Virus record (IMG/VR): IMGVR_UViG_3300015373_000023
Location: 1-34,066 of that record
Reading direction: 5' to 3' (one strand)
DNA: 34,066 nt
Source of the DNA: a virus
Shown piece by piece: positions 118-31,408 of the stretch. Position 1 is the first letter of the stretch; every line of letters starts with the position of its first letter. The notes under the pieces were generated by a model. It worked only from the letters and a program-made list of their open reading frames with translations, was not told where the DNA came from and did not search any database. The position numbers and the translations under genes were made by a program.

Positions 118-139
118 TCAAGCCGTTTTTACTCTGCCC
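91..139 (-). ncRNA. Hairpin at the end of the SF2 helicase gene
   Basis: GGGCAGAG at 91-98 pairs with CTCTGCCC at 132-139. Inside it 102-106 pairs with 120-124; the last pair is a G-U wobble on the minus transcript but a C/A mismatch on the plus strand, which favours a minus-strand RNA. It overlaps the stop codon at 118-120. There is no U-run directly after the stem, so it is not a classical intrinsic terminator. Its 3' sequence CTCTGCCCGCC is shared with the element at 2236-2298. Role unknown. Confidence 0.5.
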
Positions 140-1308
140 ATTTTTAGATCATCTATCTCAGTATCTGAAATATTGAAGTTTTTCTTAGATATTAGCGATC
201 TCCAAATAACTAAATCCATACCCGACTTGGACCTCAACGTGTAGTAGTAAAGATTCAAAAATGGGCTATTTAATCGGTCAATTCGTCCGTGCGCTTGCTC
301 CCACCGTTTGTACGAATATGTCAGTGAGTGAAAAAGCGTCGTATCCGTCTCAACGCAGTTCCAACCTTCGGAGCCAGCCACGTATTGTACCAGGTAGACC
401 CAGGAATCGGTGGTGGGTATCTCCTCATGTTTCCATCCGTTCCACTCAGCTATGTCAGTACGGCTCTGTAAGCGACGTAGAGACTCTAGCTCGTAGTTGA
501 AGTTGTAGAATATAACCATCTTGGGATGCTTCTCTAAGAGGCTCTCAATCGCCCTTACACGGCTTGGATCGGAGTTGACCACACGCCGTACCACCCCGTA
601 GAGCTCTGCGATGTCCTTGATGGGACGATTTTGATAGATATGCCAACGATTCTTGATGACCGACTGCACCAATTCCTCGTTGTGCTCTACGTACACATTG
701 ACAGAATGGCGTACGGTATGCTTCTCAAACGGCATATGAACCAATATCTGATTGCGAAAATGGTTCAGCTTTCCTTCGTTCAGATATCGCTTGACTTTGG
801 GAAACTTCTGGAACGGCTCGTAAACGACATGCTCTGTCTTGAATGCGGTTCTGTTCTTATAGAAGCCGTTGGCGACGAAGACCGGGATGTAGTCGAGCCA
901 CGTATCTCCAGGTGTGGCTGAGAGCAGGATCCAGGAATTGTTCTTGGCGATCTTGAGGAATGACTTGACCCATGTTCCCGATCCAACGAGCCGCTGTTCG
1001 TCGAAAATGAAAAACGCGTTTGTAACATCCACATATTTATGAATATTGTTCCAACTATCAACAGTAAGGACTCCCCAGACAGTTGCCCCTTCTTCCTTAC
1101 CCACGACGATCTTCGCGAACTCACCTTCCCAGTCCTTTGAATCACGCTTTTTCGCCGTGGTAATGACATAGACGTCTTTATCAACATGCCACATCTCGTA
1201 GTACGCAGCTGCCACTCGTGACTTTCCAGACCCCACACCTCCCCACAGAATATTGCCGTTTTCGAGTTGTGTAAGGGCGCGCTCCTGATGCGGTTTAAGA
1301 TCCTCCAT
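118..1308 (-). CDS. SF2 DEAD/DEAH-like helicase
   Basis: This 396-residue protein is a superfamily 2 helicase or translocase, probably remodelling phage DNA during replication or recombination. Walker A is GGVGSGKS at residues 23-30, preceded by a Q-motif-like LKPHQERAL. Motif II reads FIFDEQR (103-106 DEQR), a variant of DEAH. Motif III is SATP at 130-133. Motif VI is QAHGRIDR at 338-345, close to the QxxGRxxR arginine finger. The ATG at 1306-1308 directly abuts the stop of the upstream 110-residue zinc-ribbon gene, so the two are probably translationally coupled. The length suits compact phage SF2 helicases lacking extra nuclease domains. The family is secure; the exact substrate is inference. 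Confidence 0.88.
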
Positions 1309-6192: not shown

Positions 6193-6299
6193 GATTCTCG
6201 TCCTACCCAAGCCCATTCGCCCCAACGAGCATAATCGCTCCATCGAAGCGATGTCCAAAGACACCAAGGGCAATTCTCGGCTAGGAACAGAGTGATCAT
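6189..6299 (-). CDS. 36-residue tryptophan-rich ORF
   Basis: This short ORF starts with an ATG overlapping the TGA of the ssDNA-binding-like gene (ATGA at 6296-6299) and ends with an ATGA overlap into the 34-residue membrane ORF. The product has a CPWC pair and six tryptophans (WSDYARWGEWAWVGRES). Two perfect ATGA junctions argue for real translation, although the ORF is very short and uses a different frame from the alternative 73-residue reading. Confidence 0.5.
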   Translation of the reverse strand: MITLFLAENCPWCLWTSLRWSDYARWGEWAWVGRES

Positions 6300-6769
6300 G
6301 ATTGATCAAGTTCTGAATATTTCAACTCCAGAGGATCTTCTTGGATTGTTACATAGAGACTCTGAAGATATGCTTTGATTCCGCTCTTGTCGTTGACCGT
6401 CCAGGCATACGGACTAACGATCAAATCTACATTGATGATATCCGCCCAATCAAGCATCTCGATTTGACCTTCATCAATGTTCGTCCTTCCACGAGACGTG
6501 ATCAGGACGATACGCGGCGGGCGGCCTTTGAAGTTTACCGAGATGGGCAAATATGCCTGCGGTTCTTCTCTTCCTGCGTCTGCATCTTCTTCGCGAGGGC
6601 GCAACCACTTAACGTTCCAACCATCGGCAGCCATGTCTTCGGCTGTCTTGTCATCGAGAAGTACGGCGAAATTTCGATCACCTTCACGATTGTACTGGCC
6701 TTCTTTCCCAGCAAAATTACGAAAGATGATCCGAACACCCTCCATCAAAACCGTGTTATCCCTCGGCAT
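6296..6769 (-). CDS. Probable ssDNA-binding protein
   Basis: A 157-residue protein. The segment VRIIFRNFAGKEGQYNREGD followed by NFAVLLDDKTAEDMAADGWNVK, then YLPISVNFKGRPPRIVLI and VDLIVSPYAWTVNDKSGIKAYLQSL, matches my memory of a phage protein family annotated as single-stranded DNA-binding and rich in beta strands. It would coat ssDNA for the helicase-primase-polymerase encoded just upstream in the operon. The assignment is from recall and context, not from a unique motif. The gene is coupled by ATGA to the next ORF. Confidence 0.6.
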   Translation of the reverse strand: MPRDNTVLMEGVRIIFRNFAGKEGQYNREGDRNFAVLLDDKTAEDMAADGWNVKWLRPREEDADAGREEPQAYLPISVNFKGRPPRIVLITSRGRTNIDEGQIEMLDWADIINVDLIVSPYAWTVNDKSGIKAYLQSLYVTIQEDPLELKYSELDQS

Positions 6770-6949: not shown

Positions 6950-7168
6950 TTAGTCCTTATTAAGAAGAAGGTCGAGAGCAATCCGATCGAACTCACTTAG
7001 ATCCACATCTTGCTCATCACAAATATGAACGATGTATTGAGTCATGTCGAATAGCCTTGCATATTCACGTCTCTGTCGAGCAAGGTCCTTCATCAGAGAT
7101 CGTATGATGATTATTGACGCAATTTGTGTTCCGACTAAAATGCCGATAGCCGTTCGAACCTCAACCAT
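6950..7168 (-). CDS. 72-residue membrane-anchored protein
   Basis: The start I prefer is the ATG at 7166-7168, which has GAGGAG six nt upstream; a reading from 7183 would run further into the polymerase gene. The product begins MVEVRTAIGILVGTQIASII, a short membrane helix, then a charged cytosolic tail (KDLARQRREYARLFDM). It overlaps the end of the polymerase gene by 8 nt. Function unknown. Confidence 0.65.
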   Translation of the reverse strand: MVEVRTAIGILVGTQIASIIIIRSLMKDLARQRREYARLFDMTQYIVHICDEQDVDLSEFDRIALDLLLNKD

Positions 7169-10100
7169 TAACAAACTCCTCAAATGATCCGAAAGATTCG
7201 ATAGTCTTTATAGCTTCGGCTTTCAACTTCTCGAAATATGACATGTCAATTTTCAGATCTGTTATGGATTGAGCGATCTCGGCTTCAACCCATTTGTAAC
7301 CTTTGGTTCCGGCCACTGCGTAGTACTTATCATCCTTTACGCGGTAGAGCGTGCCACCTCCCTGTAAAACAGGTACAAAGCGACCAGTACGCCCAAGATG
7401 CCGCATGAGATGATAATCCAGAGCTTCATCTTCTTCGTGCTCCTCCCTATCAAGATACATTGTCCCTTGCACTACATTTTTACTTTCGCAGAAGTCATCG
7501 AAAGTAAGATCTTCTCCTGAAAACAGGGTTTTAAATATGTAGGGATGCTGAAATTGGGATCCTACAGCAGTCCAGGTATCACCTTTTCGCGCAATATATA
7601 CCGCATCGTTCACGAGACAAAATTTATCGTACGTTATCTCGTGTTCGAAATCATACCCGTATCGGGCACCATGTTCCTTAACGAAAGCGATTGCTCGTTT
7701 TGTTGCCCCGGGGATTTTTACGGAATCGGTCTTGATGTGTACTACCCTGTGGCCATTTTCCTGCAGGTCGTTTTTCAAATCGATCATGTAGAGAGCGCCA
7801 CGCTTAGCAACTATGTTATCCTTATTGCGATTATCTCGGAAAGGATTGGGAAATTTTGCCGAGGTCAATCCGTATACAATATTGATAACAATCTTTAGGG
7901 CGTATGCTAGCTTGTCTGCTCCATCTTCATTCTCAAGATATGGAGCTAAACGACCTTCGAGCATTTTCCTAGCCGAAGAAAAGTCTCTTCTTTTAATAGC
8001 CATACGAGCTTTTTTGAGATCCGAAAATTTTTCTGTATATTTCCCGAAGAGATTGAGGATCTCAATTGTCGTAGGGTGCATCGAAGCAATGTCCAGAAGA
8101 GCAACCTTCTTGTAGATTCCAGGCTCTGCGTAAACGTATCCACCTTCACCTGGATCTTCACCTCTATACGAGGATTTTCCGGCATCGAATTTGTATCCCT
8201 TGAATTCTTTACTCAGATCAGTATAGACAAAGGACCTCTGGGGATTTCGATCGTTGCCAAATATGATCTGTGCGGTATGTCTTTGTGTTGTGTCGTTGAT
8301 TGTCAATCCACTGAGTTCAGCCAAGATTTGTCGGGCAACGAAATCTTCCCAGCGATCTTCGAGCACAGCTTCCGTTGCTCGAACATCGTTGCAGCAATAT
8401 TCCACTACTCGCGACCAATCTTTTTCGTCTACTGGCTCGTCTAGCGGGAAATCCAACTCCATATGGTGGATACCGAGATCAATTTCAAATTTCTTAAGGC
8501 CTTGTTTGACAGAACTGATCTCCCAAACGTCGGCATAAGAAAGGTTATATGCTTGAGCAAAGAACGCATTTCGATTGTTGTCTATGACGATTTTTCTTGT
8601 TAACTCATAGAGTTTCTCGATGCTGTAACCCAAGACTGCAGCATAGAGAATATGATTGTCAAATCTACGGTTGTAGAAACCGACAAGCTTCAGTTTTGTC
8701 AGATTCTCAACCTCTTCTCTCGAAGGATTGATCATCCGAACAATGTTGTCGTCTCCCTTGAATTTCCAACAGATGACAAAGAGATTTGGGTAAACCTCAA
8801 TGTCAAATATGACCATACGATCATCGGTTACTTCGACAACAGCGTCAGCACTAACTTCCTCATCGGATTGGAACCTCATCGTCTGAACAATTCTCAGACA
8901 GTTGGAAGCCTGGTGCGTACTGTTGTTGGCAAAAGCCAAAATACGTGGTCGTAGGTCTGTGACGTCGTATTTCAGCCCTTCCTCATATGCTTCTTCTAGA
9001 ATATGAGCGATGAAATCCACCGATGGCTTGGTTCCTGGATGAATCTCTTTTCGCAGATTCCGCTCAATTAGCTCTCTAAGACCCTTTTCGGAAGTAATAG
9101 TCTTAGCCTTAAGCATCTTCTCCTTCTTCTTTTTAAGCGGGAGTCCACTGCCTATTTTGGCAACAGGCACAGCATTACATCGAGTTAACTTTCGACGTAA
9201 CGAGGCATCTCCCGTATACACCTTGATCTCGATGCCTTCGGAATATACCGATGCTAACTCGGTTGGATCCCCGAGATAAGTATAATGAAGATGTACACCT
9301 TTTCCAGATTTACTCAGCTCTGCATACGTAGCGGGCCACCTGCTTGCCGCCTCGAGATTTCGTTCAAGACTCACTTCTCCATCGGGGGTCTTCAAATCGA
9401 AATCGATGACGACATGTTTTTCAGGTACCCTTACGTAGTGAAGTTGAGAAGTGTCAATATCTGAAAGGGTAGACTTTACTCTTTCCCATTTTCTAAGAGG
9501 CGTTCCATCTTGGTTCGCCAGCTGAGCGGGACAGTCCGCAAGAAGCGAATCGAGTAGCGAATCATCTTCATCCATAACCAAAGAGAATGCCGGTAAGTTT
9601 TCATCACTTTCCTTAAGAACCTTGAACTTCTCAGCGTTGAATCCAGTATATAGACTACGAACGCGTTCACCGTCGACCTCTCCTCTATCTTTGAAATCAT
9701 CGAAATAGTTACGGAGCTCTTCGCGGATCTTGTATTGCGGACGCGCTCGATCGATGCCGCTTTCTATGCACCATTCCTTGTATAGCCCGTACGCCTGCTT
9801 CAAGGTTGTATAGTCTTGTTTCTTGAATAAATCGAAATATGCCTCAATGAAATTGAAGAAGACGTCGGTTTGAAGCATCATTTCCAGTGGACGATAGCCG
9901 TTGTAGTAATTCTTACCCATCTCCAAATATACTTGGAGACAGTGAGTAGCTATCGCACCTAGCTCGAAATCAATCTGACTCATCAACGTGTTATAGTGCC
10001 GAACCGGGATCTTAACGCCAGTTGGATGAATATCGATTAGTCTGCGAATTATTCCCGATTTGGCATCCGTGATCTTTACAGGTTGATTCGATCCGATGAA

Positions 10101-10913
10101 CAGCAATGCTTCAGCGCGGGAAGTATAACTCGGCTTGTACTTCTCATTCATCGTCATCTGCTCGTGGGAAACGATGGAATTTAGCCGTGTATTATCTTCC
10201 AACTTAGATAGATCACCGTCGTGCTGTATAGCAACAAGAGGGTTGTGTTTAAAAGCCTCCGTAGAAAACGTCCCATTTGAGCTTCCTAGGGCTTTCCCAT
10301 CGAATGTGGTGGTATATCCGTCGAACAATTTATGCAAGATGTTCAGAATAGTGGACTTACCGGATCCAGCGGGACCGTAGAATACGAAGAACTTTTGAAG
10401 TTTCTTAGAATCTCCCGCCACGATGGATCCGATAGCCCATTCTATCTTTGCTCGTTCTTCAACAGAATACAATGTTCCCACAAGCTCATCCCAAGCTGAA
10501 ATATCACCTCCCTCTAATGCGTAATTCAACCGCTTACTCGCATAGTCAGTTTTCTTTATTTCTGAGTTTGAAAACATGACTTTCGAGTCGAGGGGATGAT
10601 TATTATCACTGATATTGGCGAGGAACTTCTTAAATTGAGCCCAAGAATTGCTTTGGAATGACCGCATATAACGTACAATGTAGTTCATTCCTGTTTCTTT
10701 TCTCAATCTATCAGCTTCTGCTTGTAGATGTTCGTCTACCAATCGTTGAACATCGTACTCGTCACGAGACCATAGACCTTTTTCTTCGTCCCAAATAGCA
10801 TAAAAGGTTCGTCCTTGTACCATCAGATCCTGAGAGCGTCCCACGATAAAGTCGGGGTATAGTTCTATACCCTTATCTTTCGTCTCTTTAGTAAGGATCT
10901 GATAAAAATCCAT
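7161..10913 (-). CDS. Fused SF3 helicase / AEP-like primase / family B DNA polymerase
   Basis: A 1250-residue replisome protein. Residues 150-330 form an SF3/D5-type helicase: Walker A GPAGSGKST at 180-188 and motif C-like LLFIGSNQP about 270-278. Residues 500-590 look like an archaeo-eukaryotic primase: VIDFDLK at 502-508, SGKGVHLHY at 536-544 and IEIKVYTG at 561-568. Residues 700-1200 are a family B polymerase with proofreading: ExoI FDIEVY 703-708, ExoII GFYNRRFDN 745-753, ExoIII YCCNDVRAT 839-847, motif A DIASMHP 941-947, motif B K1007 to Y1014-G1015, motif C KTDS 1061-1064. The usual DTDS first aspartate is Lys; I recall the same variant in gut-phage relatives. The module order is reversed from ordinary primase-helicases. 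ATG at 10911-10913 with AGGAGG. Confidence 0.88.
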   Translation of the reverse strand: MDFYQILTKETKDKGIELYPDFIVGRSQDLMVQGRTFYAIWDEEKGLWSRDEYDVQRLVDEHLQAEADRLRKETGMNYIVRYMRSFQSNSWAQFKKFLANISDNNHPLDSKVMFSNSEIKKTDYASKRLNYALEGGDISAWDELVGTLYSVEERAKIEWAIGSIVAGDSKKLQKFFVFYGPAGSGKSTILNILHKLFDGYTTTFDGKALGSSNGTFSTEAFKHNPLVAIQHDGDLSKLEDNTRLNSIVSHEQMTMNEKYKPSYTSRAEALLFIGSNQPVKITDAKSGIIRRLIDIHPTGVKIPVRHYNTLMSQIDFELGAIATHCLQVYLEMGKNYYNGYRPLEMMLQTDVFFNFIEAYFDLFKKQDYTTLKQAYGLYKEWCIESGIDRARPQYKIREELRNYFDDFKDRGEVDGERVRSLYTGFNAEKFKVLKESDENLPAFSLVMDEDDSLLDSLLADCPAQLANQDGTPLRKWERVKSTLSDIDTSQLHYVRVPEKHVVIDFDLKTPDGEVSLERNLEAASRWPATYAELSKSGKGVHLHYTYLGDPTELASVYSEGIEIKVYTGDASLRRKLTRCNAVPVAKIGSGLPLKKKKEKMLKAKTITSEKGLRELIERNLRKEIHPGTKPSVDFIAHILEEAYEEGLKYDVTDLRPRILAFANNSTHQASNCLRIVQTMRFQSDEEVSADAVVEVTDDRMVIFDIEVYPNLFVICWKFKGDDNIVRMINPSREEVENLTKLKLVGFYNRRFDNHILYAAVLGYSIEKLYELTRKIVIDNNRNAFFAQAYNLSYADVWEISSVKQGLKKFEIDLGIHHMELDFPLDEPVDEKDWSRVVEYCCNDVRATEAVLEDRWEDFVARQILAELSGLTINDTTQRHTAQIIFGNDRNPQRSFVYTDLSKEFKGYKFDAGKSSYRGEDPGEGGYVYAEPGIYKKVALLDIASMHPTTIEILNLFGKYTEKFSDLKKARMAIKRRDFSSARKMLEGRLAPYLENEDGADKLAYALKIVINIVYGLTSAKFPNPFRDNRNKDNIVAKRGALYMIDLKNDLQENGHRVVHIKTDSVKIPGATKRAIAFVKEHGARYGYDFEHEITYDKFCLVNDAVYIARKGDTWTAVGSQFQHPYIFKTLFSGEDLTFDDFCESKNVVQGTMYLDREEHEEDEALDYHLMRHLGRTGRFVPVLQGGGTLYRVKDDKYYAVAGTKGYKWVEAEIAQSITDLKIDMSYFEKLKAEAIKTIESFGSFEEFVNG

Positions 10914-10923
10914 AATCCTCCTT

Positions 10924-11445
10924 CTAAAGATCCGTCATCTCGTTAACGTATGCCTGCATCTGAAACCAAATTTCTACCTGGGTTTGATCTCTTTCAGGAT
11001 TGTTCAGTGGAAAGAATCCGCCGTATCCATCATATCGATAATTTCTCCACACAAGGTTATAGAGAATTTCATCGATTCGATCGACATTTTCTTTCGTCAG
11101 TTCATCGGACATCTTGTTCAATCGAAGATTCTTGATCAACCTCCATGCCCAGTGACGATCATCACCACCCGCTATGAAAGCTACTCTTCGACTGAGACCA
11201 ATTAGCAACTCGAGAATCGTACAACCATCGAGCTGCAATTTCTTGGCTTTGATCTTGCTACCCATGAATTCTGCACGGAGATCCAAACCGTCCTGTAGAC
11301 GGTTGTTATCATTCGGAACCGTCCATACAAATTCCAGGTTGTGCATCCGTTCGAACAAGCCTCTATACGACTTACCATTTCTTGGCGTATCGACTTGTCC
11401 TATCAACCACTCATAGTATTCAAAATCAATCGGTTGCAGAGTCAT
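10924..11445 (-). CDS. Conserved phage protein, unknown role
   Basis: A 173-residue protein. It has signature segments I recall from a family widespread in gut and Gram-positive phages: YRGLFERMHNLEFVWTVPND-type start, LDGCTILELLIGLSRRVAF in the middle, and GGFFPLNNPERDQTQVEIWF near the end. The function of that family is unknown to me. It lies 10 nt before the replisome fusion and overlaps the end of the 246-residue membrane protein by 20 nt, so it is probably expressed with both. Confidence 0.75.
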   Translation of the reverse strand: MTLQPIDFEYYEWLIGQVDTPRNGKSYRGLFERMHNLEFVWTVPNDNNRLQDGLDLRAEFMGSKIKAKKLQLDGCTILELLIGLSRRVAFIAGGDDRHWAWRLIKNLRLNKMSDELTKENVDRIDEILYNLVWRNYRYDGYGGFFPLNNPERDQTQVEIWFQMQAYVNEMTDL

Positions 11446-14289: not shown

Positions 14290-14314
14290 ATTATATGGAA
14301 TGATTATTCTGCGA
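14290..14314 (-). promoter_or_regulatory. Cassette promoter motif P1
   Basis: The minus strand carries TCGC (14314-14311), 15 nt, then TATAAT (14295-14290) followed by GAA. The same layout occurs at seven other sites with exactly the same spacing. It overlaps the stop of the 177-residue gene and drives the 89-residue membrane protein. Confidence 0.75.
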
Positions 14315-14837
14315 TTTTCGCTTCTCCAGAAGCCAAACGAGCCCCAAGAGCTCTGAGTTCATCTTCTGACATTGAGTCAAATACGTGTCTTGGAATGATT
14401 TCAGGTTCGGGTTTCTCTGCTACGGCCAATGCGGGCTTCTTTTCCTCGCCGCTAGCTACTTTTGCTGCTTCTTCGGCCATTCCAGCAGGGATAACTCCGT
14501 TGATAAACTCGATTGCTGCATCCGTTTTTGTGACCAATTCCATGAAAAGCACCGAATATGCTTCGGTTGACTCGAATTCGTCACGCAGCTGCTGGTTCTT
14601 GATGAATCGACGACCATCTTCCGATTTCTGACCATAGGCGCCCAGGATGATATTCTTGAATTCTGCGATGATGCTCTTACCATCCTCAGCTGCGACAATT
14701 CGTTTCAAAGCTTCAGACAAGCCGCCTTGATGGCTCATTTCGAGCTCGACTAGCTCTGCCTTAGACAAATGGAAGAAAAAATCTTCACTAACTTCTTCGC
14801 CGTTGAAGTCTGTGTACGTAATTGTCTTCTTGAGCAC
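14304..14837 (-). CDS. Conserved phage protein, chaperone-like (uncertain)
   Basis: A 177-residue protein. The start GTG at 14835-14837 has a GGGAG site. The product reads TITYTDFNGEEVSEDFFFHLSKAEL, then LKRIVAAEDGKSIIAEFKNIILGAYGQKSEDGRRFIK, and ends in a low-complexity acidic tail (EPEIIPRHVFDSMSEDELRALG). I recall this pattern from gut-phage proteins sometimes labelled tail assembly chaperone. Here it lies 15 kb from the tail genes, in the membrane cassette region, so the label is doubtful. Its stop lies inside promoter P1. Confidence 0.65.
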   Translation of the reverse strand: MLKKTITYTDFNGEEVSEDFFFHLSKAELVELEMSHQGGLSEALKRIVAAEDGKSIIAEFKNIILGAYGQKSEDGRRFIKNQQLRDEFESTEAYSVLFMELVTKTDAAIEFINGVIPAGMAEEAAKVASGEEKKPALAVAEKPEPEIIPRHVFDSMSEDELRALGARLASGEAKIAE

Positions 14838-29346: not shown

Positions 29347-30156
29347 TTAACTTGATCCGCCGACGTTCGTAGATGACACTTCATATGTATCTGGATTCAA
29401 ATATGTGGCATCTGCACCATCGATTTGGAAAGTGGTATCGTCGATCATATCGATATATGTATTAGACTCGTCAATAGCAGTCCAACTACCATCTCCATGA
29501 TCAATGATGATAAGCGCACCCAGATATCCAAAGATTTCGCCGATTTCTGTGATTGGCGGAAGACTAGGACCCACTTTATCCGTTCCATACAGCGTGGATT
29601 CCAGCAATCTCAAGACATCAGGAGGAGTTTTCCTTGAATCGATAGAAATGTGAACTGTCGGTCGAAGTTTCTGAATCTTTGGAGGTGTTCCTGTCAAAGT
29701 CCAGGAAAACTGGGTTGCTTCGGCCGTTTCTCTCAAGGTTTGGAAAGTAGCCGTATCAGGATTAGCAATAATATTATAAAGGATATGAATCTTGTATCCG
29801 TGATCCATCCCATCAATGTCATTGCCGACTTTCGTTCGGTATGACAAGTTGAAACTCTTCGAGGGTTGCTCGTAATAGTCCAATCCTGGGGCAACTTCGG
29901 CAATTCCGTTGACAGAATCGAACTCGTCGGGATAGGTATACGCCTTGAGCTTTCCCTGGAAGTCTCCTGGAGTAAGATTCTCTAGAAACTTCACACCCTC
30001 AAGATAAAACGACTTCAATTCTGAGTTTTCGGACTCTTCTACATCGATGAGCCCGTTCCAAGGAGCTACTGTGCCGTCTTGAAGATAGAGAACCCCACGA
30101 TCGACACCCGTTTGATACACTCTCTCGCCGACTTCATCCCAAGTAAGAGTTGCCAC
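29347..30156 (-). CDS. Second tail-tube protein (paralogue)
   Basis: A 269-residue protein starting at GTG 30154-30156 with GGGGGTGA upstream. It is a paralogue of the protein at 30752-31408: both begin MA-LTWD-VGERVY-TGVD-G, and share AYTYPDEF or AFTYPDEF, LSYRT-VGND-DG-DHGYK-H and a late LL--LYG segment. It has about 45 extra C-terminal residues (LIIIDHGDGSWTAIDESNTY). The first copy is the likely main tube; this one may decorate or form a different tube section, which is inference. Confidence 0.8.
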   Translation of the reverse strand: MATLTWDEVGERVYQTGVDRGVLYLQDGTVAPWNGLIDVEESENSELKSFYLEGVKFLENLTPGDFQGKLKAYTYPDEFDSVNGIAEVAPGLDYYEQPSKSFNLSYRTKVGNDIDGMDHGYKIHILYNIIANPDTATFQTLRETAEATQFSWTLTGTPPKIQKLRPTVHISIDSRKTPPDVLRLLESTLYGTDKVGPSLPPITEIGEIFGYLGALIIIDHGDGSWTAIDESNTYIDMIDDTTFQIDGADATYLNPDTYEVSSTNVGGSS

Positions 30157-30751: not shown

Positions 30752-31408
30752 TCAGGGCCCACCAAACAGCGCGATAACTGCGTCCGGCGTCGGAAGAGCA
30801 GCCTCGGTTGCACCATTGCCATACAGCAGATTCTCGAGTGCTGTAAGATCCGCCGCATCCACCACAGTCGAGTCGACCACGATCAGCGAAGTCGGCTTGT
30901 AGTCCGTCACCGGCACTGGAGTCGTCGTGACCTCCCAGCTGAACGCGATTGCCTCCGGTGAATCGTTGATCGTCGCATAGGCCTTCTCCGACGGAGCAGC
31001 CTGGCAGCCATAGACCAGATGCAGCTTGTAGCCATGATCCGTTCCGTCGACGTCGTTACCGACTCGAGTCCTATAGCTCAGACCGAACATCTTCCGACCC
31101 TGCTGTCCGACGATCACACCCTCGGCTGGCATGGCGCTACCGTCACACGGACCGAATTCATCCGGATAGGTGAACGCCTCGATGGTGCAACCGAACTCTT
31201 CAGCAGAGATCAGGTTCAGGTACTTGATGTTGTCAGCGTACTGTGCATTAGGTTCAGCACCGGACGGCGACTCGGTGACAGTCGTGAGACCATTCCAAGC
31301 AACACCGAGATCGTAGACACCGGTTTCGTTCGGGAGATAGAGAACTCCATGATCTACACCGGTCTCATATACTCTTTCGCCGACCTGGTCCCAAGTCAAA
31401 GGGGCCAT
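30752..31408 (-). CDS. Major tail-tube protein
   Basis: A 218-residue protein that should form the tail tube. It shares its main motifs with the 29347-30156 paralogue (GERVYETGVD, EAFTYPDEFG, LSYRTRVGNDVDGTDHGYKL). It is more GC-rich than the second copy, which may reflect high expression. It follows the tail completion gene at 31423-31722. Confidence 0.82.
   Translation of the reverse strand: MAPLTWDQVGERVYETGVDHGVLYLPNETGVYDLGVAWNGLTTVTESPSGAEPNAQYADNIKYLNLISAEEFGCTIEAFTYPDEFGPCDGSAMPAEGVIVGQQGRKMFGLSYRTRVGNDVDGTDHGYKLHLVYGCQAAPSEKAYATINDSPEAIAFSWEVTTTPVPVTDYKPTSLIVVDSTVVDAADLTALENLLYGNGATEAALPTPDAVIALFGGP

Follow-up and report, generated by a model that had tools for sequence, protein, structure and literature searches.

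The locus considered here raises the question of whether a single phage gene can carry a helicase, a primase and a proofreading DNA polymerase in one polypeptide, and whether such a gene would amount to a replisome in itself. The gene lies in IMG/VR virus record IMGVR_UViG_3300015373_000023, which was analysed as one stretch of DNA of 34,066 nucleotides (the window), the same length as the source record (34066 bases). It occupies positions 7161-10913 on the minus strand, where it forms one uninterrupted open reading frame (ORF) of 1250 amino acids; the plus-strand translation of the same interval is riddled with stops. It is highly probable that this gene encodes a replicase of the HelPrimPolB/GP55 type belonging to a tailed phage, and the protein is a well-preserved new example of this described and biochemically tested class. 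The novelty implied by the original prediction, which was made from the sequence of the window, did not hold, since the architecture had already been named HelPrimPolB (Kazlauskas et al. 2020; PMC7544198) and its member GP55 had already been assayed.

From the N to the C terminus, the single polypeptide contains an SF3 helicase, an AEP core, a helical domain, and an exonuclease with a family B polymerase (PolB). The features of the gene are given below, with conservation counted over 119 distinct aligned sequences (113 from IMG/VR, the window, GP55 and four other named phages).

7161..10913, minus strand: HelPrimPolB (GP55-like) replicase, 1250 aa; ATG start, stop included
9657..10604, minus strand: SF3 (D5-like) helicase domain, residues ~104-419; from Pfam DUF5906 and VIA-align
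10353..10376, minus strand: Walker A / P-loop GPAGSGKS, residues 180-187; from the sequence and aligned columns
9132..9569, minus strand: AEP (PriS-like) catalytic core, residues ~449-594; from Foldseek and VIA-align to NrS-1 PrimPol
9396..9404, minus strand: AEP motif I DFD (D504, D506); invariant, 119/119
8862..9110, minus strand: helical domain aHD, residues ~602-684 (Y649, F661); from helices in the model and the GP55 alignment
7179..8828, minus strand: 3'-5' exonuclease and family B polymerase, residues ~696-1245; from Foldseek to 9N and VIA-align to KOD
8796..8804, minus strand: ExoI motif DIE (D704, E706); invariant, 119/119
8091..8093, minus strand: polymerase motif A Asp D941; invariant, 119/119
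7722..7733, minus strand: polymerase motif C KTDS (K1061-S1064); invariant, 119/119, also in GP55

Above its cut-off, Pfam recognised only the centre of the helicase (DUF5906, residues 178-291, E 1.1e-12); the PolB and AEP domains of the protein went undetected in Pfam, with no match to PF00136 in the window, and a phmmer search of the protein against the PDB returned nothing below E 0.1. Structure comparison was therefore needed. The predicted structure of residues 430-700, made from 59 window and IMG/VR sequences, has a pLDDT of 85, and its top ten Foldseek matches are all NrS-1 or pRN1/Sulfolobus ORF904 PrimPols (E 2.8e-6 to 4.3e-4), so that the middle region does have the AEP fold on which the predicted primase depended. 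In VIA-align the AEP core is closest to NrS-1 PrimPol (Z 9.3, root-mean-square deviation (rmsd) 3.5, 140 aligned), below which come ORF904, CAPP, S-2L PrimPol, RepB' and eukaryotic primase subunits. NrS-1/ORF904-type PrimPol-helicases carry a six-helix bundle behind their AEP. The model of this region shows four helices beyond the AEP core; VIA-align superposes the NrS-1 chains on that core alone (model residues 20-165), and the helical domain (602-684) has weak helical matches only in the VIA-align listing. The N-terminal part matches the SaPI5 primase-helicase (Z 19.8, rmsd 9.2, 291 aligned), poxvirus D5/E5 (Z ~17.5, with vaccinia D5 at 17.5; rmsd 3.3 and 234 aligned for 8apl) and the NrS-1 C-terminal region (Z 17.4, rmsd 10.9, 281 aligned). 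The C-terminal part matches KOD polymerase in VIA-align (Z 16.5, rmsd 7.0, 452 aligned), and Foldseek pairs the polymerase part with 9N polymerase (E 2.2e-16).

These matches, to SF3 helicases, to NrS-1 and ORF904, and to PolB, bear out the order of helicase, AEP and proofreading PolB that had been proposed. The boundaries, however, required adjustment: the helicase moves from 1-350 to ~104-419, the presumed AEP region of 480-690 resolves into a core at ~449-594 and a separate helical domain at ~602-684, and the polymerase range of 700-1250 becomes ~696-1245 for the exonuclease and PolB together. NrS-1 and ORF904 primase-polymerase-helicases share the AEP fold and the SF3 helicase with the window protein, but their AEP precedes the helicase, whereas the window protein is helicase-first and adds a PolB with exonuclease. 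The HelPrimPolB group, by contrast, comprises PolBs with an SF3 helicase and a PrimPol fused at the N terminus and with a divergent motif C, and no difference from the window protein was seen in its description (PMC7544198).

The catalytic residues of all these domains are retained. The window protein has helicase K186, N276 and R290/R291, AEP D504, D506, H541 and E562, exonuclease D704, E706, D752 and D843, and polymerase D941 and D1063. Motif counts were taken from aligned columns, as a looser regular-expression count missed members with small variations. Invariant in all 119 sequences are N276, R290 and R291 (of which, from their position, the first is presumably sensor 1 and the latter two the Arg finger), D504, D506, S534, H541, E562 and F661, as well as D704, E706, D752, Y839, D843, D941, Y1014, G1015 and the whole of K1061-T1062-D1063-S1064. 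The Walker A K186 is kept in 117/119, the other two being gaps in truncated rows; D232 is kept in 118/119, with one gap, and D234 of the Walker B region in 116/119, with one Lys, one Asn and one gap. Tyr occupies the aHD position Y649 in 109 sequences and Phe in the other 10. The remaining departures in the exonuclease and polymerase are Cys at N748 (11 sequences), Arg at K1007 (six), one each at S944 and N1011, and Arg (four) or Ala (one) at K1204.

What such a protein may do is best judged from GP55 of lactococcal phage 1706, purified in 2025, which unwinds, primes, extends and proofreads, and has been called a “four-in-one replicase” (PMC12205980). The authors of that report credit it with DNA polymerase, 3'-5' exonuclease, UTP/dTTP-dependent helicase and RNA primase activities, and identify 5'-CCAAC-3' as a strong site of priming. 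Strand displacement by GP55 depends on its helicase, M13 single-stranded DNA (ssDNA) is fully copied de novo from NTPs and dNTPs, and mutation of D509 abolishes priming (PMC12205980). GP55 follows the same plan as the window protein (SF3 helicase, PriS-like AEP, aHD, exonuclease and PolB), and the two are identical at 40.2% of 1225 aligned positions. All seven GP55 residues that were checked (K189, D509, Y655, F667, D712, E714 and D949) are the same in the window protein; in the alignment D509 corresponds to window D506, Y655 to Y649, F667 to F661, D712 and E714 to D704 and E706, and D949 to D941.

By analogy with GP55, the N-terminal SF3 domain would load onto DNA and unwind it, and the AEP core, with the adjacent helical domain, would synthesise a short RNA primer with loose site specificity. 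This primer would then pass to the C-terminal family B domain, which would extend it with strand displacement, using an active site made up of motif A D941 and motif C D1063 in which a lysine replaces the usual first motif C aspartate, while the exonuclease of the same part would proofread. Replication of the phage genome would further involve an SSB-like protein and an SF2-type helicase, both encoded separately. The window gene is, in this respect, a sound example of a phage whose core replication enzymes are combined in a single gene.

Several points weigh against so full a reading. The activities suggested for the window protein are carried over from an enzyme to which it is only 40% identical. 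The near full-length model (residues 51-1250, from 55 sequences) has a pLDDT of 82 and a pTM of 0.50, and the domain arrangement that it predicts is not reliable. The genome survey covered ten records, namely the window, five named phages and four IMG/VR records, and five of these, counting the window, are possibly incomplete IMG/VR contigs, which leaves room for further replication genes. Additionally, GP55 differs from the window protein in having a Gly at the Ser/Thr position of its P-loop (GTGKGT as opposed to GSGKST) and in needing UTP or dTTP for its helicase (PMC12205980), and details of the helicase may therefore not carry over.

The full P-loop reads GAKGTGKGT in GP55 and GPAGSGKST in the window protein. 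The Ser or Thr of a P-loop normally binds Mg, and the UTP/dTTP dependence of GP55 may thus be linked to its Gly. The corresponding position, 187, is Ser in 108 of 117 rows (the window among these) and Gly in the other nine. On a quick maximum-likelihood tree the Gly entails at least six changes, and the window sits within a large branch that keeps Ser. It is conceivable, though rather unlikely, that members of the family differ in helicase fuel, such that the window enzyme is driven by ATP and the P-loop residue acts as a switch of nucleotide preference that has flipped repeatedly. This link between the P-loop and nucleotide choice is conjecture, and the repeated change could be explained equally well by a position that tolerates substitution; the difference does offer a cheap way to probe the use of dTTP and UTP by GP55.

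Motif C had been read as KTDS, with a lysine in place of a catalytic-site acid, and this reading was confirmed in every aligned sequence. The motif is VVHIKTDSVKIP in the window protein, with K1061-T1062-D1063-S1064, and VVHVKTDSFKLP in GP55, which likewise contains KTDS. Because it recurs in 119 of 119 distinct sequences, KTDS is neither error nor chance; as far as the alignment can tell, it is a fixed trait of the sampled family rather than a local oddity, and one that is common to a member known to polymerise. The main text of the GP55 report makes no mention of motif C, KTD, lysine or HelPrimPolB (PMC12205980). Three stand-alone PolBs, from Enterococcus phage TV54 (L166), Pseudomonas phage HHBS29_1 (L165) and the crAss-like phage cr55_1 (L168), have NTD as their motif C rather than DTD or KTD. 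Judged from these three, loss of the first motif C aspartate appears to be wider than the fused enzymes, and, within the sequences compared, only the fused enzymes have the lysine.

As motif C of most B-family enzymes contains two aspartates (PMC7544198), the first of which is a lysine here, it might be supposed that the polymerase is crippled and that the protein serves mainly as a primase-helicase feeding the host DNA polymerase. This is very improbable, however, as GP55 is an efficient and proofreading polymerase with the identical KTDS and is inactivated by the motif A substitution D949A (PMC12205980). The motif C lysine is thus compatible with polymerisation and implies no dead site; an inactive polymerase owing to KTDS was rejected on the same ground. 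That one motif C Asp suffices also fits the piPolBs, which are without the first aspartate yet highly active (PMC7544198). Additionally, most of the motif positions of the exonuclease and polymerase are invariant in 119/119, which speaks for selection on activity.

The same absence of the first motif C Asp in piPolBs (PMC7544198) and in the window protein (K1061) could be taken to mean that the PolB domain starts DNA synthesis without a primer, leaving the AEP an auxiliary role. This proposal fares no better than the last and is likewise given very little weight. GP55 can no longer synthesise DNA de novo when its AEP is mutated or its primase region is lost, and it yields no significant product from dNTPs alone (PMC12205980); the AEP residues D504, D506, H541 and E562 are, moreover, invariant in 119/119. 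The preferred reading remains that of a HelPrimPolB/GP55-type replicase in which the AEP would prime and the PolB would extend.

This replicase belongs to a large family. PHROG 4210 matches the window protein end to end (1956.8 bits), and a tblastn search of 50,697 phage records found matches in 413, and in 252 of these the match spans 80% or more of the protein; a looser threshold raises the number of matching records to 581. The listed rows are mostly annotated “DNA primase/polymerase”. The best relative is that of Gordonia phage Petito (62% identity), and among the rows listed the enzymes of Gordonia, Rhodococcus, Arthrobacter and Streptomyces phages (for example Petito gp64 and ReqiPepy6 gp072) are full-length, ~51-62% identical, and differ from the window protein by sequence divergence only. 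In the records examined from these phages, genes for an SF2-type helicase and an SSB-like protein form part of a similar cassette. Under the looser threshold, full-length relatives extend as far as those of Faecalibacterium phage FP_oengus (49% identity) and Lactococcus phage P162 (35%). Within IMG/VR, a relative is encoded in 349 of 374 candidate stretches, and a profile search found one in at least 596 of 600 stretches. The window gene carries the GP55 type, which has been tested biochemically, into a large environmental branch close to actinobacteriophages.

That separate genes were fused by chance or by assembly in this single contig is practically excluded, for although the closest stand-alone PolBs found (in the Enterococcus, Pseudomonas and crAss-like phages) are each encoded by a gene of their own, and the Enterococcus phage has a separate Prim-Pol gene near its PolB, the full-length fusion is present in 252 GenBank phage records and the PHROG 4210 fusion in 10/10 records examined, and these GenBank and IMG/VR relatives rule out an artefact.

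The fusion was reportedly first described in a 2016 paper. For later work on such fused enzymes, a literature search turned up PMC12205980 alone. Annotation of the family is inconsistent across phages: the replicase is a “hypothetical protein” in Lactococcus phage P162 (L163:20001-24035) and a “putative helicase” in phage 1706 (L167:18583-22536).

There remains the question of whether the gene is a replisome in itself. Its neighbourhood is that of a tailed phage, with a head maturation protease, major tail proteins, a tape measure protein, a Dit-like protein and minor tail proteins upstream of the replicase. The genes that bear on replication, and the immediate neighbour of the replicase, are as follows.

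6296..6769, minus strand: predicted phage ssDNA-binding protein, downstream companion; Pfam PF24083 (E 9.5e-65) and phrog_4787
118..1308, minus strand: predicted SF2-type DNA helicase, downstream companion; phrog_62
10924..11445, minus strand: gene directly upstream of the replicase; phrog_4678, no Pfam match at E 0.1

Each of the ten surveyed records has one PHROG 4210 gene, one phrog_62 helicase and one phrog_4787 ssDNA-binding protein. DnaB_C, the DnaG zinc ribbon and family A polymerase (PolA) had no match in any of the ten, and the controls were detected; thus, no other standard replicase was found in the surveyed phages. The suggestion that the gene may be “one self-contained replisome” is largely true of the homologue GP55, whose authors describe its self-sufficiency in nearly those words (PMC12205980), but its main limit is the separate helicase and SSB-like gene in every surveyed record. 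With both companions predicted in 10/10, the phage replisome is probably more than the replicase gene, which looks like a core replicase, but one with partners. The window record is itself probably a fragment, as two annotated relatives continue past the helicase with HNH, VRR-Nuc and Cas4/RecB-like genes and one large HTH-annotated gene.

Other genes of the window, all on the minus strand, are of lesser concern here. A phrog_4282-like protein (14304-14837, 177 bits) lies between the tail genes and the replicase. The proteins at 29347-30156 and 30752-31408 both match the major tail protein family phrog_2645 (277 and 362 bits) and are separated by one phrog_4338 gene; they are possible duplicated tail tube proteins. 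Finally, three relatives that carry this replicase encode a protein of 880-990 aa, absent from the window, towards the end of the gene block that holds the replicase (L162:28591-31365, L082:34035-36683 and L163:37613-40579). It matches phrog_4291, “RNA-dependent RNA polymerase” (1242-1343 bits), has a C-terminal HTH, and is annotated as an HTH protein, as hypothetical or as a putative RNA polymerase. That a fused replicase occurs alongside an RNA-polymerase-like gene in these three relatives may merit a look.

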